Source of the DNA: Bacillota bacterium
GTDB lineage: Bacteria; Armatimonadota; HRBIN16
NCBI GenBank assembly: GCA_023511455.1
Contig: JAIMBJ010000005.1
Span: forward strand, 62,001 to 126,000
DNA length: 64,000 nucleotides
Direction: 5' to 3'
Part shown: positions 48,979 to 54,604 of the stretch, in pieces
How positions within the stretch are numbered: position 1 is the stretch's first letter
Layout: each line of letters starts with the position of its first letter
The notes under the pieces: model-generated
Seen by the model: only the letters and a program-made list of their open reading frames with translations
Databases searched by the model: none
What the model was told of the DNA's origin: nothing
Made by a program: the position numbers and the translations under genes

Positions 48979-49037
48979 GTAGAGCGAGCGGGAGTAGTTC
49001 AGTGGCAGAACGCCAGCTTCCCAAGCTGGATGTCGCG
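48979..49037 (+). repeat. Left 59-bp direct repeat (attL)
   Basis: It is identical over 59 bp to 54521-54579. It covers a 9-base leader and the first 50 nt of tRNA-Gly, including the whole anticodon stem-loop dyad (49013-49029), the likely site of recombinase strand exchange. Sequences diverge immediately on both sides. Confidence 0.93.
48988..49037 (+). pseudogene. Truncated 5' half of tRNA-Gly(CCC)
   Basis: The first 50 nt of the tRNA, up to and including the anticodon arm, are present, then sequence changes at 49038 and the T arm and acceptor 3' strand are missing. It is the host-side remnant left by integration; the intact copy is at 54530. Confidence 0.92.
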
Positions 49038-49098
49038 CTGAAAGCCTCACCCACCACACTACATCTTGTGCCTCTTCACCCTGCATCAGCCTGAAAAC

Positions 49099-49112
49099 CA
49101 CAACATGTTGTG
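49099..49112. promoter_or_regulatory. Left-end palindrome CACAAC-AT-GTTGTG
   Basis: This perfect 14-bp palindrome lies 62 bp inside attL. A matching CACAAC-CT-GTTGTG lies 31 bp inside attR. The paired positions suggest binding sites for the recombinase or its accessory factor. The rest of 49038-49146 shows no other clear signal. Confidence 0.6.
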
Positions 49113-49146
49113 TTGCCACCAAACACACACACGGGAGGCGCAACAC

Positions 49147-50064
49147 ATGCAGATACTCAGCTTGCACATCACGGACACAAACACCATTAACACCACATTC
49201 ACGTTGTGGATGGAAGCACTACAGGCACGCAGGCTTACATCACGAACACTGGAAACCTACAGCGATATGGTAAGTGGCTTTGTGGCTTTCTTGTGCCAGC
49301 AAGGTTGCCAGCAGTTAGAGGAAGTGCAACCCCACCACATTCGCCAGTGGCTGATACACAAGCAAGCACAAGCAGTAAGCACCCACACCCTGCACAACGC
49401 CTACAGGCTACCACGAACCTTCTGGAACTGGTGCATACGCGAAGGCTTAACGGAACACAACCCTTTCGCGAAGGTAGAACCACCAAAACGTGAACAGGTG
49501 CTGAAGCCTGCCCTGAACCCTGAGCAGGTGGAAGCCTTACTGCAGGCGTGTGAAGGCAGGCACTGGCTACGCCTGCGCGATAAGGCACTGGTTCTGCTGT
49601 TGCTGGATACAGGCTTGCGCATTCACGAATGCCACCAGTTGCGCGTGGGTGATGTTCTGCAGAACGCGCTGATTGTGCGTGGCAAAGGTGGTAAACAGCG
49701 CATGGTGGTGCTGAGCGCAGAAGTAAGGCTTGCCTTACTGCGATACCTGAAGGCGTGCCCTGCGAAGCCTTCTGCACAACAGCCACTGTGGCATGGCGCA
49801 GATGGCGCACTTACTCTGGATGGCTTGAAACTGGCGGTGCGCAAGGCAGGCAAGCGTGCTGGTATTCAGTTAGGCGCACACCAGTTGCGCAGAACCTTTG
49901 CCACGTGGAGCCTGCGCAATGGGATTGATTTGGAACACCTGCGCCTGCTGATGGGGCACAGCGACCTGAAAACCACACAGCAATACCTGGCACTGGTAGA
50001 AGATGATTTGAAACGCGCACACGAACAGCACAGCCCACTGAAAACCTTGCGTGAAAGGAGGTGA
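49147..50064 (+). CDS. int: Tyrosine recombinase/integrase of the element
   Basis: The 305-residue protein has the N-terminal SAM-like core-binding domain (residues ~10-105) and the C-terminal catalytic domain. Catalytic residues are visible: Arg158 in DTGLRIHE, a lysine in RGKGGKQR near 180, His245 and Arg248 in HQLRRTFA, His271 in LLMGHSDLKTT and the nucleophile Tyr280. It should integrate and excise the element at tRNA-Gly. ATG 49147 is chosen because GGGAGG lies 7 bp upstream. The downstream gene begins 5 bp after its stop. Confidence 0.94.
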   Translation: MQILSLHITDTNTINTTFTLWMEALQARRLTSRTLETYSDMVSGFVAFLCQQGCQQLEEVQPHHIRQWLIHKQAQAVSTHTLHNAYRLPRTFWNWCIREGLTEHNPFAKVEPPKREQVLKPALNPEQVEALLQACEGRHWLRLRDKALVLLLLDTGLRIHECHQLRVGDVLQNALIVRGKGGKQRMVVLSAEVRLALLRYLKACPAKPSAQQPLWHGADGALTLDGLKLAVRKAGKRAGIQLGAHQLRRTFATWSLRNGIDLEHLRLLMGHSDLKTTQQYLALVEDDLKRAHEQHSPLKTLRERR

Positions 50065-50069
50065 AACAG

Positions 50070-50378
50070 ATGGCTACCCACTACTTCGAAGCAGAAGGCA
50101 AGGTATACAAACTGAACACCACCACTGCCACCAAACTGCTGGATACCTTCAGGCGCAATGGCAACCCACAAACGCGCTGGAGCGAAATCTATCGCACACC
50201 AGCAGGCAGGTATGTGCAGGTGAATCGCACGCAGTGGGAAGGTGAAGAAGATTCAGCAAGCCTGCTTCACGAAGAAGAGGTGGTGATAGCACTGGCACTG
50301 GCTGAACCTTCACAGCGCACACCAGAAGGTGAAGCCCTGCTGGCGCAGAAAGAATCTGCCTTCGTGCAACAGGCATGA
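50070..50378 (+). CDS. Small protein of unknown function in the element
   Basis: The 102 residues (starting ATHYFEAEGKVYKLN) show a mixed alpha/beta pattern with no family I recognise, and an acidic Glu/Ala-rich C-terminal third. A perfect SD (AAAGGAGG) overlaps the end of int, so it is probably translated with it. Its position suggests an accessory factor for recombination or replication, but nothing in the sequence proves this. Confidence 0.65.
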   Translation: MATHYFEAEGKVYKLNTTTATKLLDTFRRNGNPQTRWSEIYRTPAGRYVQVNRTQWEGEEDSASLLHEEEVVIALALAEPSQRTPEGEALLAQKESAFVQQA

Positions 50379-50408
50379 ATCTGCGCAGAAAAACATCTAC
50401 ACAAACCC

Positions 50409-50437
50409 TTGCAGTTTGTGGCAAGGTGTGGTATAAT
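50409..50437 (+). promoter_or_regulatory. Strong promoter with overlapping dyad, upstream of the hairpin RNA and HTH gene
   Basis: TTGCAG (50409-50414) and TATAAT (50432-50437) are spaced 17 bp. The dyad CCTTGC-N8-GCAAGG (50407-50426) covers the -35 box and half the spacer, an operator-like position, and its half site matches the iteron core of the primase-gene clusters. Confidence 0.8.
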
Positions 50438-50443
50438 GTAGAT

Positions 50444-50533
50444 GCTGGCGCGATGCGCTAGAGGATTGAAACTAGCCTGCTAAGATACCCGGATTGCTGT
50501 TTTACAGCACAGGCGAATCTTAGCAGGCTTTTT
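50444..50533 (+). ncRNA. Predicted ~90-nt structured RNA with terminator/attenuator
   Basis: From the predicted start near 50444 the transcript contains a small hairpin (GGCGC/GCGCT), then GGATTGAAAC (50463-50472), as at the 3' end of many CRISPR repeats. A perfect 13-bp stem follows (50474-50486 with 50517-50529) whose 30-base loop holds a second hairpin (TGCTGT/ACAGCA), and then TTTTTGC. The RNA could be a free small RNA or an attenuated leader of the HTH gene, whose SD begins 10 bp later. No cas gene is present. Confidence 0.55.
50474..50533 (+). terminator. Intrinsic terminator of the hairpin RNA
   Basis: A perfect 13-bp stem (AGCCTGCTAAGAT with its complement) is followed by five T residues. 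It lies between the promoter at 50409 and the HTH start at 50551, so read-through must be controlled or low. Confidence 0.75.
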
Positions 50534-50550
50534 GCTTTAGGAGGTGCTAA

Positions 50551-50739
50551 ATGCAAGAAACGCAGTACAAACTGTTGAGTGTGAAGCAAACAGCGCAGGA
50601 ACTGGGCGTAAGCCGGGAAACCGTGCGCAGGTGGATCCACAAGGGTGTACTTCGCGCTGTGCGCATAGGGAGGAACCACAAGATACCTGAGGCACAATTG
50701 CAGAAACTGATAAGGAGGCAGGGTGAGCTAACGCCTTAG
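50551..50739 (+). CDS. Excisionase-family helix-turn-helix protein
   Basis: The 62-residue protein is essentially one MerR/HTH_17-type winged helix. It has LLSVKQTAQELGVSRETVRRW at residues 8-28, then the wing KGVLRAVRIGRNHKIPEAQL. Such proteins direct excision (Xis) or repress promoters of mobile elements. GGAGGTG precedes ATG 50551, directly after the terminator hairpin, which suggests attenuation control. Confidence 0.87.
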   Translation: MQETQYKLLSVKQTAQELGVSRETVRRWIHKGVLRAVRIGRNHKIPEAQLQKLIRRQGELTP

Positions 50740-50754
50740 CATTCCAAAACGAAA

Positions 50755-50805
50755 CTCGCCTGCGCCAGGTTTTGAGCAAGCCACACGCGCAGGCGAGACA
50801 CCTGG
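50755..50805 (+). other. Predicted H-type RNA pseudoknot in the primase leader
   Basis: CTCGCCTGCGC (50755-50765) pairs perfectly with GCGCAGGCGAG (50787-50797). The first loop bases CAGGT (50766-50770) can pair with ACCTG (50800-50804) just past the stem, giving the order needed for a pseudoknot. No T-tract follows. The primase ATG is about 50 bp downstream. Confidence 0.55.
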
Positions 50806-50856
50806 TAGCTGAGCGAGCCACTACAACCATAGGAGGTTGCACCAGGAGATTACACT

Positions 50857-52878
50857 ATGATTATACCACAAAAGTTGCAAAATGTGTTAGCCAGATTGGG
50901 CAATGTGCGCCAACAGCGCGATGGCAGCTGGTTGGCGCACTGCCCTGCGCACGATGATCACGAGCCAAGCCTTCACATTACCCTGCAAAATGAAAGGGTG
51001 CTTCTTCACTGCTTTGCAGGATGCTCCTTGCAAGCGATCTGCAACGCGCTGAACATTGAACCCAAACATCTGTTCCTGTGCGAAGAACCAGCAAGCCACC
51101 AGCACCCTGAAGGCGAAGGATTAACACTGCAAGCCTTCGCGAAGGCGAAACACCTTGAGGCTGAACTGTTGCGCCAGGCGCAGGTTACGCAAGGTATGTA
51201 TCAGGGTAAGCCTGCTGTGTTGCTCAAGTATCGCGATGCTGAAGGCGACCTGCAGGCGATTCGCTATCGTGTGACACTGGCAGGCGATCGCTTCAGGTGG
51301 CAGAAGGGTGCTGAGCCTCGCCAGTTAGCGTATGGCGAGTGGTGGCTTCCCCAATGGCGTGAAAAGGGCAGGCGCGAAATTGTGCTGGTAGAGGGAGAGA
51401 GTGATGCCTTAACACTGTGGCAGATGGGCGTGCCAGCACTGGGCATTGCGGGAGCAAACAGTTTGAGCGAATATCACGCTGAACTGTTGGCAGGCTTTAA
51501 GGTGGTGGTTTGGCAGGAACCTGATTCAGGGGGCGCAACCTTCGCGCAGAAGGCTTCGCAGCTGTTCCAGAACGTGAGGCTAATCGAGCCACCACAAGGC
51601 GTGAAAGATGCGAATGAACTGTGGCTCAAGTGTGTGGCCCAACACGGCGAGAACGCGAAGGCTATTTTCAAACAGCAGATTCGCGAACTGCTGGCGCAGG
51701 CGAAGCCTGTGGAGGCTAGTGAACCCCAGACCTTGCATGAAACCTTGCAATATATAAGGGGTTGCAAGCTTCAAGGTGTTAACCACCTGTATACTCTCCA
51801 CGAACTGAAGAACGCGCCTGCCCACGAATCTTCAACAGAGGCGAGCCTGCCCTTCTTCGGTGTTTCAGGAATCATCCGTAAGGGCAGGAGCCACCTGCTG
51901 GCAGGCAAGCCACGTGTTGGGAAAACTGAAGCCCTGTTTCGTGGTGGAGTGCTGGAGTGGCACAACGAGAGAATACTCTACCTGAGCGAGGAGGGTATCG
52001 AAGATTGGCGCGTGCGCCTCGCCAGCTTCGCGGATGATGAATTGCCTGAACAGTGCCACGTGCGTTTGTGCGCAGGAGAATCGCGTGAGAATCTTCTGGC
52101 TGAGATTCGCGAAGGGGGTTACAGCGTGGTGGTGTTGGATACCCTGCGTGGGGTATGGCGATTGAGTGATGAACTCCACCCTTCACGTGTGATCCAGGAT
52201 GTATCACCCCTGATTGATTTACAGCGCAAGTTGCGGTTTACACTGGTGGTGCTTCACCATGAGCGCAAGGCAGAAGGCGAGGCTTTCAGCGATAGGTTTG
52301 CTGGAACGAATGCCTTGAGTGGTATGTTTGATATGCTACTGAGCCTGAACCAGAAGAGCGAGGGCAATTTGGTGCTTTCCTACGAAGGTAGAACCTCGCA
52401 AGGTGGCAGCCTGATGCTGCAGTGGCAGGATGGCAACCTGCGCTACGTGGGCGAGGCAGAAACAATGGAGTGGCGAGTGCTACTTCAGCGCATCGAGGCA
52501 GTGCTGTATCGTGCGAGTAAGCCATTAAACACTCAAGAGGTTAGGCGTGAATTAGGCGAACCTCTTCCAGGTTATCGCACTGTGTTGAACGCCTTAAACT
52601 ATCTCTACCAGAACCAACAGATTGAACGCGAACCAAAAGAGACCAAAGCTGGGGCTACTTACAGATGGTACATCACACCCACAAGGCGTGAAAGCCACAA
52701 GGCAACCCCTGAATCTGTTGCTATCCCCCACCTTGCACCTTGCGAGCCTATATATATGCAAGGTTTTTTGCAAGGTTCGAGCGATGGCGAGCCTGAACTG
52801 CCCTGGTGGGCAACAGGCGAGGGCGTGCCAGAAGGTGAGCCTGCCTTTCTGGAGGTGAGCGAAGATGAACGCGCATGA
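50857..52878 (+). CDS. Primase (CHC2 zinc and TOPRIM) fused to a RecA-like ATPase
   Basis: The 673 residues contain a CHC2-like zinc site (C29, H32, C52, C56) and a TOPRIM core (IVLVEGESDALTLW at 175-188, then EPDSGG at 221-226). The RecA/RepA-like ATPase has Walker A LAGKPRVGKTEAL at 348-360 and Walker B SVVVLDTL at 423-430. The C-terminal ~120 residues look like a winged-helix region. It likely primes and unwinds the element's DNA. The gene also carries two iteron-like clusters, in the TOPRIM-ATPase linker (codons ~291-308) and near the C-terminus (~625-640). It overlaps the next gene by 14 bp. Confidence 0.88.
   Translation: MIIPQKLQNVLARLGNVRQQRDGSWLAHCPAHDDHEPSLHITLQNERVLLHCFAGCSLQAICNALNIEPKHLFLCEEPASHQHPEGEGLTLQAFAKAKHLEAELLRQAQVTQGMYQGKPAVLLKYRDAEGDLQAIRYRVTLAGDRFRWQKGAEPRQLAYGEWWLPQWREKGRREIVLVEGESDALTLWQMGVPALGIAGANSLSEYHAELLAGFKVVVWQEPDSGGATFAQKASQLFQNVRLIEPPQGVKDANELWLKCVAQHGENAKAIFKQQIRELLAQAKPVEASEPQTLHETLQYIRGCKLQGVNHLYTLHELKNAPAHESSTEASLPFFGVSGIIRKGRSHLLAGKPRVGKTEALFRGGVLEWHNERILYLSEEGIEDWRVRLASFADDELPEQCHVRLCAGESRENLLAEIREGGYSVVVLDTLRGVWRLSDELHPSRVIQDVSPLIDLQRKLRFTLVVLHHERKAEGEAFSDRFAGTNALSGMFDMLLSLNQKSEGNLVLSYEGRTSQGGSLMLQWQDGNLRYVGEAETMEWRVLLQRIEAVLYRASKPLNTQEVRRELGEPLPGYRTVLNALNYLYQNQQIEREPKETKAGATYRWYITPTRRESHKATPESVAIPHLAPCEPIYMQGFLQGSSDGEPELPWWATGEGVPEGEPAFLEVSEDERA
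51730..51777 (+). repeat. Iteron-like cluster A inside the primase gene
   Basis: Two ACCTTGCA copies (51730-51737, 51742-51749) are 12 bp apart. They are followed by TATATAA, then the inverted partial copies TTGCAAG and CAAGGTG. The cluster lies in a protein linker and recurs in inverted orientation 1 kb downstream. Confidence 0.65.
52730..52776 (-). repeat. Iteron-like cluster B, inverted relative to cluster A
   Basis: Read on the minus strand it gives ACCTTGCA, 4 bases, ACCTTGCA, then TATATATA, then CAAGGTGCAAGGT: the same order and 12-bp period as cluster A. Plus-strand coordinates of the three full cores are 52730-52737, 52757-52764 and 52769-52776. Confidence 0.65.
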
Positions 52879-53812
52879 GTTGCTGGATGCCCTTCACGTG
52901 GCAGGCATCGCTGTATGGGTAGAACAGGGCAGGTTGGGTATTTACCCACCTTCACGCCTCACGCCAGAACTGAAGCAGGCACTGCGCGAGCAGGGCAAAG
53001 AGCTGGCGCGAATCATCGAGCAGGAATATATCTGCTGGCACTGCGAAAGCCACCACGTGCGCTTCGATGTGCCACTACAGCGTTACGTGTGTGAAGCGTG
53101 CAGGCGCGTGCTACAGGAACCTCTTTCACCCTTCCCACCACTGCATGAACTGCTATGGCAGGCAGGTTCAGTGTATGGTTTCCCTGCGCTGAAGTTAGCA
53201 CCCCACATCACCCTGAAGGCAGGGCGTGAATCATGGCTTACCTTCTGCACCTCACCCTTCACGAAACACCACACACGCCTGCTGGTGCTGGCGTATCGCA
53301 AACTGGTAAACCCTGCACAGGCAGATGAGATAGAACCTGAACCCAACCACAAACCACATCACACGACGGAGGTGAACCACATGAAACTGGTATGGCAAGA
53401 TTCCGAACCACTGCCCACTGGCGAATACCTGGTAAGGGTTGCCAGCATCACTGAGAAGGAGGGCAAGTACAGCCTGCAGTTACAGTGGATGTTTCGCGTG
53501 CTGGAACCAGGATACGAAGGGCGCGAACTGATTGCCTACACGAACGCCACCAACAGCACCACAGCCAAACTGGCGCAGTGGGCACGGGCGTTAGGTTGTG
53601 AAGTGGTGCCCGGTGAAGAGTTTGATACGGATGAACTGGTGGGGCGCAAGGCTATCGCTGTGGTGGTGGTAAAGCCTTCTCAGCAGGGCAATCGCTACAA
53701 CCACGTGGAGAACCTGCTACCAGTGCGCCAGAAGAAGCCTGTGGCTGTGAGTGCGAAGGCAGAAAGCGAGGCAGAAGAACGCGATTACTTCTCTGAAGAA
53801 GAAGAGGATTGA
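52865..53812 (+). CDS. TubC_N-like, zinc-ribbon and DUF669-like protein with internal start
   Basis: Residues 1-50 match the TubC N-terminal docking fold (LLDALHVAGIAVWVEQGRLGI), which is frequent on phage and plasmid genes. A CWHC and CEAC zinc ribbon follows at ~57-80. Residues 173-315 resemble the phage DUF669 family of presumed single-strand-binding proteins (GEYLVRVASITEKEGKYSLQLQW), with an acidic SSB-like tail (DYFSEEEEED pattern). A perfect SD (GGAGGTGA) 5 bp before an in-frame ATG at 53381 should give a separate 143-residue C-terminal product. The tail supports a single-strand-binding role by analogy. Confidence 0.72.
   Translation: MNAHELLDALHVAGIAVWVEQGRLGIYPPSRLTPELKQALREQGKELARIIEQEYICWHCESHHVRFDVPLQRYVCEACRRVLQEPLSPFPPLHELLWQAGSVYGFPALKLAPHITLKAGRESWLTFCTSPFTKHHTRLLVLAYRKLVNPAQADEIEPEPNHKPHHTTEVNHMKLVWQDSEPLPTGEYLVRVASITEKEGKYSLQLQWMFRVLEPGYEGRELIAYTNATNSTTAKLAQWARALGCEVVPGEEFDTDELVGRKAIAVVVVKPSQQGNRYNHVENLLPVRQKKPVAVSAKAESEAEERDYFSEEEED
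53381..53812 (+). CDS. Probable independently translated DUF669-like single-strand-binding protein (internal start)
   Basis: ATG 53381 is in frame with the longer gene and is preceded by GGAGGTGA at optimal spacing, stronger than the SD of the full-length start. The product would be 143 residues starting MKLVWQDSEPLPTGEYLV, the natural start of DUF669-like proteins, and would end in an acidic tail. Either two proteins are made from one frame or two ancestral genes have fused. Confidence 0.6.
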   Translation: MKLVWQDSEPLPTGEYLVRVASITEKEGKYSLQLQWMFRVLEPGYEGRELIAYTNATNSTTAKLAQWARALGCEVVPGEEFDTDELVGRKAIAVVVVKPSQQGNRYNHVENLLPVRQKKPVAVSAKAESEAEERDYFSEEEED

Positions 53813-53938
53813 ACCTTCGCGTAGAAGGCGTTTCTAAGCCACCAGAAAGCCTGTACAGCCACGATTCAGGCGCAGGCGAGGGGTTCCCCTTCCCTTCACG
53901 TGAAAACGCGCTGTGCAGGCTTCCTGGAGCCTTTCAGG

Positions 53939-54241
53939 ATGCACCAGCACACCTTACACGCCAGAACGATTGTACGCTACCTGCAGAAACGTGGTGCATG
54001 GGTAGCGCGAATACGTGGCACATGGGGGCAACGTAGAGGCTTGCCTGATATACTGGCGTGCTGGCAGGGCAGGCTGATTGCTATTGAGGTGAAAACAGGC
54101 AGTGGCAGGTTAACGCCAGCACAGAAGCGTGAACACGAAGCCCTGCGCACTGCAGGTGCAGTGGTGCTGGTGGGCAACGCTGAACAGGTGCTTTCCGAGC
54201 TGGAACATCTTACCCACGAACCCCAGTTGCGCTTGCTGTAA
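53939..54241 (+). CDS. VRR-NUC domain nuclease
   Basis: The 100-residue protein is a stand-alone VRR-NUC (PD-(D/E)XK) domain: RGLPDILACWQGRLIAIEVKTG near residues 38-60 provides the catalytic Asp, Glu and Lys, followed by GRLTPAQKREHEAL. Stand-alone copies occur in phages and satellites beside replication genes and are thought to resolve or process branched DNA. ATG 53939 has GGAG 8-9 bp upstream; a GTG at 53900 is an alternative. It is the last gene of the element. Confidence 0.85.
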   Translation: MHQHTLHARTIVRYLQKRGAWVARIRGTWGQRRGLPDILACWQGRLIAIEVKTGSGRLTPAQKREHEALRTAGAVVLVGNAEQVLSELEHLTHEPQLRLL

Positions 54242-54262
54242 CCCGAAAAATGAAACGGAAAA

Positions 54263-54322
54263 GGGTACGTAAGCATACCCCAACCTCAACGGCGATACAT
54301 GTATCTGGAAGGTGTACGTACA
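54263..54322. repeat. Cluster of short palindromes near the right end of the element
   Basis: Three dyads lie close together: GGGTA-N8-TACCC (54263-54280), the perfect GATACATGTATC (54294-54305) and TGTACGTACA (54313-54322). A single iteron core TGCAAGGT follows at 54359. The rest of 54242-54520 is noncoding. Confidence 0.5.
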
Positions 54323-54475
54323 GTGTACTATTTCATGCGCAGGCACGCTGATAGATTTTGCAAGGTTTTGGGAGATTTGGGGATATGGCGTGCTTGCTTT
54401 TTGTGGCAGAATGTGTTAAGATAAATAGTGGCTGTGTGAGATAGCCAGCTACCTGGAAATTGGCAGTGTGCGCAA

Positions 54476-54489
54476 CACAACCTGTTGTG
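54476..54489. promoter_or_regulatory. Right-end palindrome CACAAC-CT-GTTGTG
   Basis: It matches the left-end site in both 6-bp arms and lies 31 bp inside attR. TTGTGC (54485-54490) and TAGCAT (54508-54513) with a 17-bp spacer overlap its right arm and could form the promoter of the restored tRNA. Confidence 0.55.
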
Positions 54490-54520
54490 CCTGCAGGGCG
54501 TGAAGGGTAGCATATCTTGT

Positions 54521-54579
54521 GTAGAGCGAGCGGGAGTAGTTCAGTGGCAGAACGCCAGCTTCCCAAGCTGGATGTCGCG
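54521..54579 (+). repeat. Right 59-bp direct repeat (attR)
   Basis: It is identical to 48979-49037 and contains the leader and 5' half of the restored tRNA-Gly. Confidence 0.93.
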
Positions 54580-54604
54580 GGTTCGAGTCCCGTCTCCCGC
54601 TCCA
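54530..54604 (+). tRNA. tRNA-Gly(CCC), restored at the right end of the element
   Basis: A full cloverleaf with encoded CCA: acceptor GCGGGAG/CTCCCGC, anticodon stem CCAGC/GCTGG with loop TTCCCAA (anticodon CCC) and T arm CGGG-TTCGAGT-CCCG. Its 5' 50 nt come from the direct repeat carried by the element, its 3' part from the chromosome. Confidence 0.96.

Follow-up and report, generated by a model that had tools for sequence, protein, structure and literature searches.

The locus: a small integrative element in a tRNA-Gly gene

The window, by which we mean the whole stretch of 64,000 nt analysed here, is part of a 3.85 Mb genome (G000; the host genome in what follows). Towards its right-hand side lies an integrative element (Table 1) bounded by perfect 59-bp direct repeats at 48979-49037 and 54521-54579, which are 5542 bp apart from start to start. 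An intact tRNA-Gly(CCC) gene at the right end (54530-54604) includes the right copy of the repeat, and a tRNA remnant is found at the left end (48988-49053). These att repeats within a tRNA-Gly gene, together with an integrase and replication genes, identify the sequence as a mobile element. No structural genes were seen among its ORFs, and it is a satellite-sized integrative element.

The subject of this study is a short transcription unit in the intergenic region between the orphan 105-aa ORF and the HTH_17 gene, the ribosome-binding site of which lies directly 3' of the terminator T-run. It is solitary, as no further repeat occurs within 100 bp, the spacing used to define solitary repeat units (SRUs). 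The 105-aa ORF belongs to no Pfam or PHROG family, and no convincing relative of it was found in related elements, viral contigs, phages or plasmids; from its position only, it is a candidate for a protein anti-CRISPR.

Table 1. Coordinates of the element, its genes and the parts of the transcription unit (positions in the window)
Feature	Position	Strand	Evidence or remark
Integrative element, ~5.54 kb, in tRNA-Gly	48979..54604	+	59-bp direct repeats, tRNA detection
Tyrosine integrase	49066..50064	+	Pfam PF00589, E 2.3e-30; PHROG integrase
Orphan 105-aa ORF	50061..50378	+	Directly 5' of the RNA, between integrase and RNA
Promoter TTGCAG, 17 nt, TGG-TATAAT	50409..50437	+	Extended -10, weak -35; sequence reading
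Repeat-mimic hairpin	50445..50461	+	7 bp around a triloop; closed by a C-G pair, like the stem of the host repeat; folding
AGGATTGAAAC handle	50462..50472	+	Same 11 nt as follow the stem in host CRISPR repeats; last 8 nt equal a Cas6-type handle
Intrinsic terminator	50474..50534	+	13-bp stem, inner hairpin, T5; 1 nt past the handle
HTH_17 / excisionase-like gene	50551..50739	+	PF12728, E 1.1e-14; PHROG excisionase and regulator, E 4.8e-11
Primase/helicase	50857..52878	+	Pfam, PHROG searches
DUF669 protein	52865..53812	+	Weak likeness to phage single-strand-binding proteins; Pfam, PHROG
VRR-NUC / Hjc-like nuclease	53900..54241	+	Pfam, PHROG searches

A promoter, a hairpin, a handle and a terminator in close succession

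Between 50432 and 50534 the -10 box of an extended -10 promoter, a 7-bp hairpin, the sequence AGGATTGAAAC, a single T and a 13-bp terminator follow one another. An earlier inspection of the DNA (the original prediction) had proposed a TTGCAG-17-TATAAT promoter, which we confirmed by reading the sequence: the -10 box (TATAAT, 50432-50437) is perfect and is extended by a preceding TGG, and the -35 box (TTGCAG, 50409-50414) is weak. The strict promoter scan had no entry here because only three of the six -35 positions match. A 36-bp block that includes the -10 region has an 83% identical counterpart in a second genome of the genus (G006), where it precedes a gene resembling a regulator; this favours a promoter type shared across the lineage. 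A promoter-like block resembling that of the window also lies 5' of an HTH gene in a related element (L217, G003:C1:823000-833100), where it is followed by a long leader that has a GC-rich hairpin and a T-run but no repeat mimic.

The stem of the first hairpin, which begins 7 bases past the -10 box, pairs CTGGCGC (50445-50451) with GCGCTAG (50455-50461) around a GAT loop; the GGCGC/GCGCT stem originally proposed is thus present and, with 7 bp, longer than described. The handle AGGATTGAAAC is predicted to be mostly unpaired, with values between 0.4 and 0.99 at single positions. The strong terminator that had been proposed was also found, as AGCCTGCTAAGAT and its partner ATCTTAGCAGGCT form a 13-bp stem followed by TTTTT; our terminator scan admits only loops shorter than the 30 nt found here and therefore did not list it. 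The RNA from 50441 to 50538 folds with -41.3 kcal/mol (z -5.2), which none of 200 shuffled sequences reached. Every pair of both helices has a probability of at least 0.88, and the predicted fold persists at 55 and 65 °C.

As to chance, GGATTGAAAC occurs once in the window (expected: 0.07), and stems of 7 bp or longer end exactly at a given base at 0.6% of 127,880 positions. Rfam models run over the whole window at gathering level detected nothing beyond tRNAs. The CRISPR-DR9 model aligned over its full length at 50438-50472, with non-standard pairs in the stem and a score of 18.2 bits, below the cut-off of 45.

The handle is that of the host type I-C repeats

Type I-C systems lack Cas6, and Cas5c cuts the repeat instead, leaving an 11-nt 5' handle on the crRNA where Cas6 leaves 8 nt (PMC3727216, PMC5965380). 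Arrays of ATTGAAAC-type repeats were present in all 10 genomes of the genus that were searched. The array repeat of the host is GTTGCACCCGTCC(TT or CC)CGGGACGGGTGAGGATTGAAAC, with the 3' end GGGTG-AGGATTGAAAC. Its last 12 nt, GAGGATTGAAAC, occur 39 times in the host genome: 38 copies belong to array repeats (2 at C36, 17 at C51 and 19 at C56), and the 39th, the only one outside arrays, is in the RNA described here. Taken alone, this match is modest evidence against a chance expectation of 0.24 copies per genome (0.004 per window). Multiplying by the rate of stems in the same register gives ~0.0015 per genome, an after-the-fact calculation that assumes independence and leaves the promoter and the mobile setting uncounted.

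The host genome encodes a complete type I-C locus (Cas3c, Cas5c, Cas8c, Cas7c, Cas4, Cas1 and Cas2), with the C36 array directly after cas2, and a type III-A locus at C28 (Cas6, Cas10/Csm1, Csm3, Csm4 and Csm5). The host thus has CRISPR-Cas systems of matching subtype, with repeats that end in the same 12 nt as the RNA. The original prediction had noted an absence of cas genes, and our genome-wide searches agree with it for Cas1 and Cas6, the matches to which were on other contigs only and not in the window.

AGGATTGAAAC is exactly the 11-nt handle left by the type I-C Cas5c, and it stands directly 3' of the hairpin in both the host repeat and the RNA. The last 8 nt had originally been read as the 5' handle of many type I and III crRNAs. 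They are indeed of the Cas6 type, but the 11-nt type I-C handle is probably the relevant one, because the array adjoins the type I-C cas locus. Host repeat and RNA have a common layout of 4 nt (GUUG in the repeat, GAUG in the RNA), a stem closed by a C-G pair and the 11 nt AGGAUUGAAAC; the base preceding GGATTGAAAC is A in both. The comparison with host repeats that had been suggested earlier therefore bears out the position of the hairpin and the last 12 nt but not the sequence of the hairpin, which is unrelated in the two and differs inside the stem. By sequence, what appears to be retained of the host repeat is the cut site and what is downstream of it.

Related elements

Relatives of the element's primase were found in 10 of 291 genomes of the phylum, the host genome included, and relatives of its integrase are common in the genus. 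We read 35 regions carrying relatives of the element's genes for the handle and found GGATTGAAAC in none of them. Neither the RNA nor the 105-aa ORF upstream of it had a convincing relative in viral contigs, phages or plasmids, and the integrase had distant viral relatives only. We also compared the element and its relatives with 287 spacers from arrays of ATTGAAAC-type repeats, a sample of the arrays present in the genus; none of these spacers targets the element, the best matches being 18-20 nt long. With no relative found to carry the RNA and no sampled spacer targeting the element, the function proposed below is argued from anatomy and host match.

Another member of the element's family is present in the host genome (L222, G000:C44:13500-23766), with an integrase 58% alike and relatives of the DUF669 and VRR genes, and without a repeat mimic. 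Six related elements have a conserved structured leader after the integrase gene, at L044:4350-4500(+), L219:2200-2375(+), L220:2070-2220(+), L221:8130-8285(-), L228:1155-1335(-) and L229:1310-1490(-). An outer stem encloses hairpins, and one loop forms a pseudoknot by pairing with the ribosome-binding site of the gene that follows. With the structure written from one of the six sequences, 99.3% of 138 cells are paired, 8 of 23 pairs are changed on both sides (4 of 7 in the pseudoknot), and the covariation score was matched by 0 of 500 shuffles. The regions matched no Rfam family at cut-off, and this leader would appear to be a new type of riboregulator in mobile elements.

A putative RNA anti-CRISPR

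Mobile elements encode solitary repeat-like RNAs termed Racrs, one of which, RacrIC1, inhibits a type I-C system (PMC10651486). We lean towards the view that the RNA described here is a CRISPR-repeat mimic that the 5.5-kb element uses as a Racr-like RNA anti-CRISPR against type I-C and possibly also type III-A. On our analysis, it probably serves to jam the CRISPR immunity of the host. That promoter and terminator frame the mimic within a few bases, inside a mobile element, counts for this interpretation. So do the viral units described below, which are built to the same plan with stems of varying sequence. The weak -35 box, the low CRISPR-DR9 score, the absence of the RNA from the related regions read and the lack of a targeting spacer among those sampled count against it.

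The Racr class had been named in the original prediction, and the host handle, the register, the mobile element and the matching subtype bear out that proposal in part. Structure, register, outer pair and handle are shared with the host repeat. The stem sequence is not, and the RNA falls short of the identity expected of an SRU: SRUFinder asks for 90% identity or more across no less than half of a known repeat, with a bit score of at least 41.1 (PMC10651486), and the best local match to the host repeat, the one repeat compared, is 12 of 37 nt, ungapped. We do not claim Racr membership because of this difference in sequence and because inhibition is a prediction. The diverged stem, and the occurrence of the RNA in this one element and in none of the 35 regions with relatives, could also indicate a degenerate repeat that was captured by chance or left over from an array and is without function. 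A perfect handle and a complete stem, closely framed by promoter and terminator, would be unexpected in a decayed repeat, and we consider such a remnant improbable.

If the RNA is an anti-CRISPR, transcription would begin at the hairpin or immediately 5' of it and stop at the terminator. The product would be an RNA of ~95 nt that consists of the hairpin, the 11-nt handle and the terminator hairpin. The host Cas5c would be expected to bind the hairpin and handle and to cut after G50461. The upstream cleavage product would hold one Cas5c. The downstream product would open with the 11-nt 5' handle, the site on which Cas5c and Cas7 nucleate the type I-C Cascade (PMC7684278). Its 'spacer', however, would be shut in the 13-bp terminator helix, and Cas5c and Cas7 would be pulled into dead-end complexes. 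Shortage of Cas5c, together with these complexes, could then bring about inhibition. The RNA could also be a substrate for the type III-A Cas6, which would cut at its own site and leave the 8-nt tag ATTGAAAC.

Two published Racrs invite comparison. RacrIC1, from a Bifidobacterium prophage, is likewise a solitary repeat-like RNA of a mobile element with hairpin and handle, directed at a type I-C system in which Cas5 processes crRNA. It lies behind the acrIC5 gene, with which it is co-transcribed, and was identified through its similarity to repeats (PMC10651486). The RNA of the window differs in having a promoter of its own, a stem that bears no relation to the host repeat, and a terminator beginning at the handle. 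RacrIF1 also mimics the host repeat, and cleavage by the host crRNA nuclease is expected for both RNAs. According to PMC10651486, RacrIF1 acts through its upstream product, which is coated with Cas7f and carries no handle, and a version reduced to the handle did not inhibit. In contrast, the RNA of the window would have 1-4 nt before the stem (with a start ~7 nt past the -10 box) and would keep the handle product. The balance between upstream and downstream products must therefore differ from that of RacrIF1 and, with almost no RNA 5' of the hairpin, the action should run through hairpin and handle.

It is possible, and we suggest it tentatively, that a leaderless, terminator-locked handle decoy of this kind is a distinct design of RNA anti-CRISPR, in which nothing lies 5' for a Cas7 filament, the cut frees a perfect 5' handle and the guide part is the terminator. 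Our search of the literature on Racrs, solitary repeats and satellites, which covered titles and the beginnings of abstracts and took in few subscription journals, revealed no terminator-locked or leaderless type. As the handle and the stem register alone are kept, such mimics would escape present searches by repeat similarity. If this is true, RNA anti-CRISPRs need retain only the handle and the hairpin register, published repeat-similarity searches have missed part of their number, even a mobile element of only 5.5 kb would carry one, and the inhibitory part could be the handle instead of the upstream product.

Other possible functions of the RNA

The original prediction had offered an attenuated leader of the HTH gene as an alternative. 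The short RNA would then stop at the terminator, read-through would set expression of the excisionase-like gene, and the likeness to a repeat would be coincidental. Promoter, leader and terminator do precede the gene: the terminator stands between the only visible promoter and the ribosome-binding site. The related element L217 has a similar promoter, a hairpin and a T-run before its HTH gene without any repeat mimic, and other relatives have a different structured leader after the integrase. However, single-strand folding, to which protein-dependent forms are invisible, revealed no competing antiterminator. Both helices have pair probabilities near 1, and formation of the one alternative stem, GCTAG/CTAGC (-3.5 kcal/mol), would take away ~3 of the 13 terminator pairs. 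Two relatives (L043 and L046) have, on reading, no such terminator before their HTH genes, and the exact host handle in the register of the hairpin is left unexplained. We regard a terminated leader, the main rival reading, as rather unlikely to be the whole explanation. Both functions may be true together, and if the anti-CRISPR RNA also leads the excisionase-like gene, its cutting by Cas proteins could signal active CRISPR to the element.

The antitoxin RNA CreA of CreTA (PMC8501985, PMC9458426) is likewise an ectopic repeat-like RNA, and it uses the host effector. With the handle behind a hairpin, the RNA of the window might similarly be a CreA-like or mini-CRISPR guide and steer the host Cascade to a promoter by means of the sequence that follows its handle, and a unit in another genome of the phylum (G051, described below) does look so. 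Unlike CreA, the RNA of the window shows no open spacer, and neither a second repeat nor a PAM-flanked target was found. Its would-be seed is buried in the terminator. TTC followed by TAGCCNGCTAA had no match in the whole genome with up to one mismatch, and the match to the RNA's own promoter was no better than that of shuffled sequences, 496 of 500 of which reached it. The best candidate for a second repeat downstream was equalled by 388 of 500 shuffles. With no PAM-flanked target, no second repeat and a closed seed, we regard a guide function as highly improbable and dropped it.

Further units with promoter, stem and handle

A search for promoter, hairpin register and handle, by which the putative anti-CRISPR RNA can be recognized without repeat similarity, yields further candidates in viral contigs. 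The promoter-plus-handle pattern occurred at no fewer than 113 distinct sites, and among the matches listed six have a stem of at least 5 bp exactly before the 11-nt handle, all of them solitary. With a second, narrower pattern for type I-C we obtained 19 sites, of which 13 have a stem (11 solitary and 2 in arrays); the GTCNC in this pattern fixes the outer C, so that the C-G pairs of its units are partly due to construction. Three units are common to both sets, which leaves at least 14 distinct solitary units. We examined 13 of the 14 (L085, L075, L109, L101, L132, L269, L260, L264, L271, L267, L274, L273 and L261), leaving out L069/L123, in which the stem is off register.

The stems of the 13 units, of 5-7 bp, vary in sequence and begin 6-22 nt past the -10 box, and 7 of the units have a -35 box with five or six matches. 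In several of them the -10 box is only 6-9 nt before the stem, and the RNA should therefore begin at the repeat. A terminator lies within 80 nt in three units and abuts the handle in none. The type I-C-like units from IMG/VR (e.g. L085, L101, L109, L132, L261 and L273) carry an 11-nt handle, N+GGATTGAAAC, after the varying stem, as does the RNA of the window, although its first base is T or C in these units and A in the RNA and its host. With a stem that varies and a register and handle that stay, the 13 units look like candidates for type I-C RNA anti-CRISPRs.

As a control, none of 25 viral sites with TATAAT and GAGGATTGAAAC has such a stem. In genome contigs (at least 185 distinct sites), three of the matches listed have a 5-bp stem and none has one of 6 bp or more. 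With its 7-bp stem, the RNA of the window therefore groups with the stem-bearing viral units.

In the 291 genomes of the phylum, TATAAT-N5..35-GGATTGAAAC occurred at six sites, one of them the RNA described here. As solitary units we rejected L252, which is a true array, and L249 and L250, which are homologous stretches that appear by eye to be coding; L248 has no stem and was rejected as a mimic. The sixth site is the G051 unit (L254, G051:C171:6317-6397, minus strand), where a TTGACA-17-TATAAT promoter is followed by a half repeat, a 40-nt spacer, a second half repeat and a small ORF that, by eye, is HNH nuclease-like. The spacer matches the unit's own promoter at 14 of 17 positions (mismatches at 6, 8 and 12) next to a TTC, and 0 of 500 shuffles reached 14 matches. 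The sequence suggests that this is possibly a self-repressing, CreTA-like unit guarding a nuclease gene.
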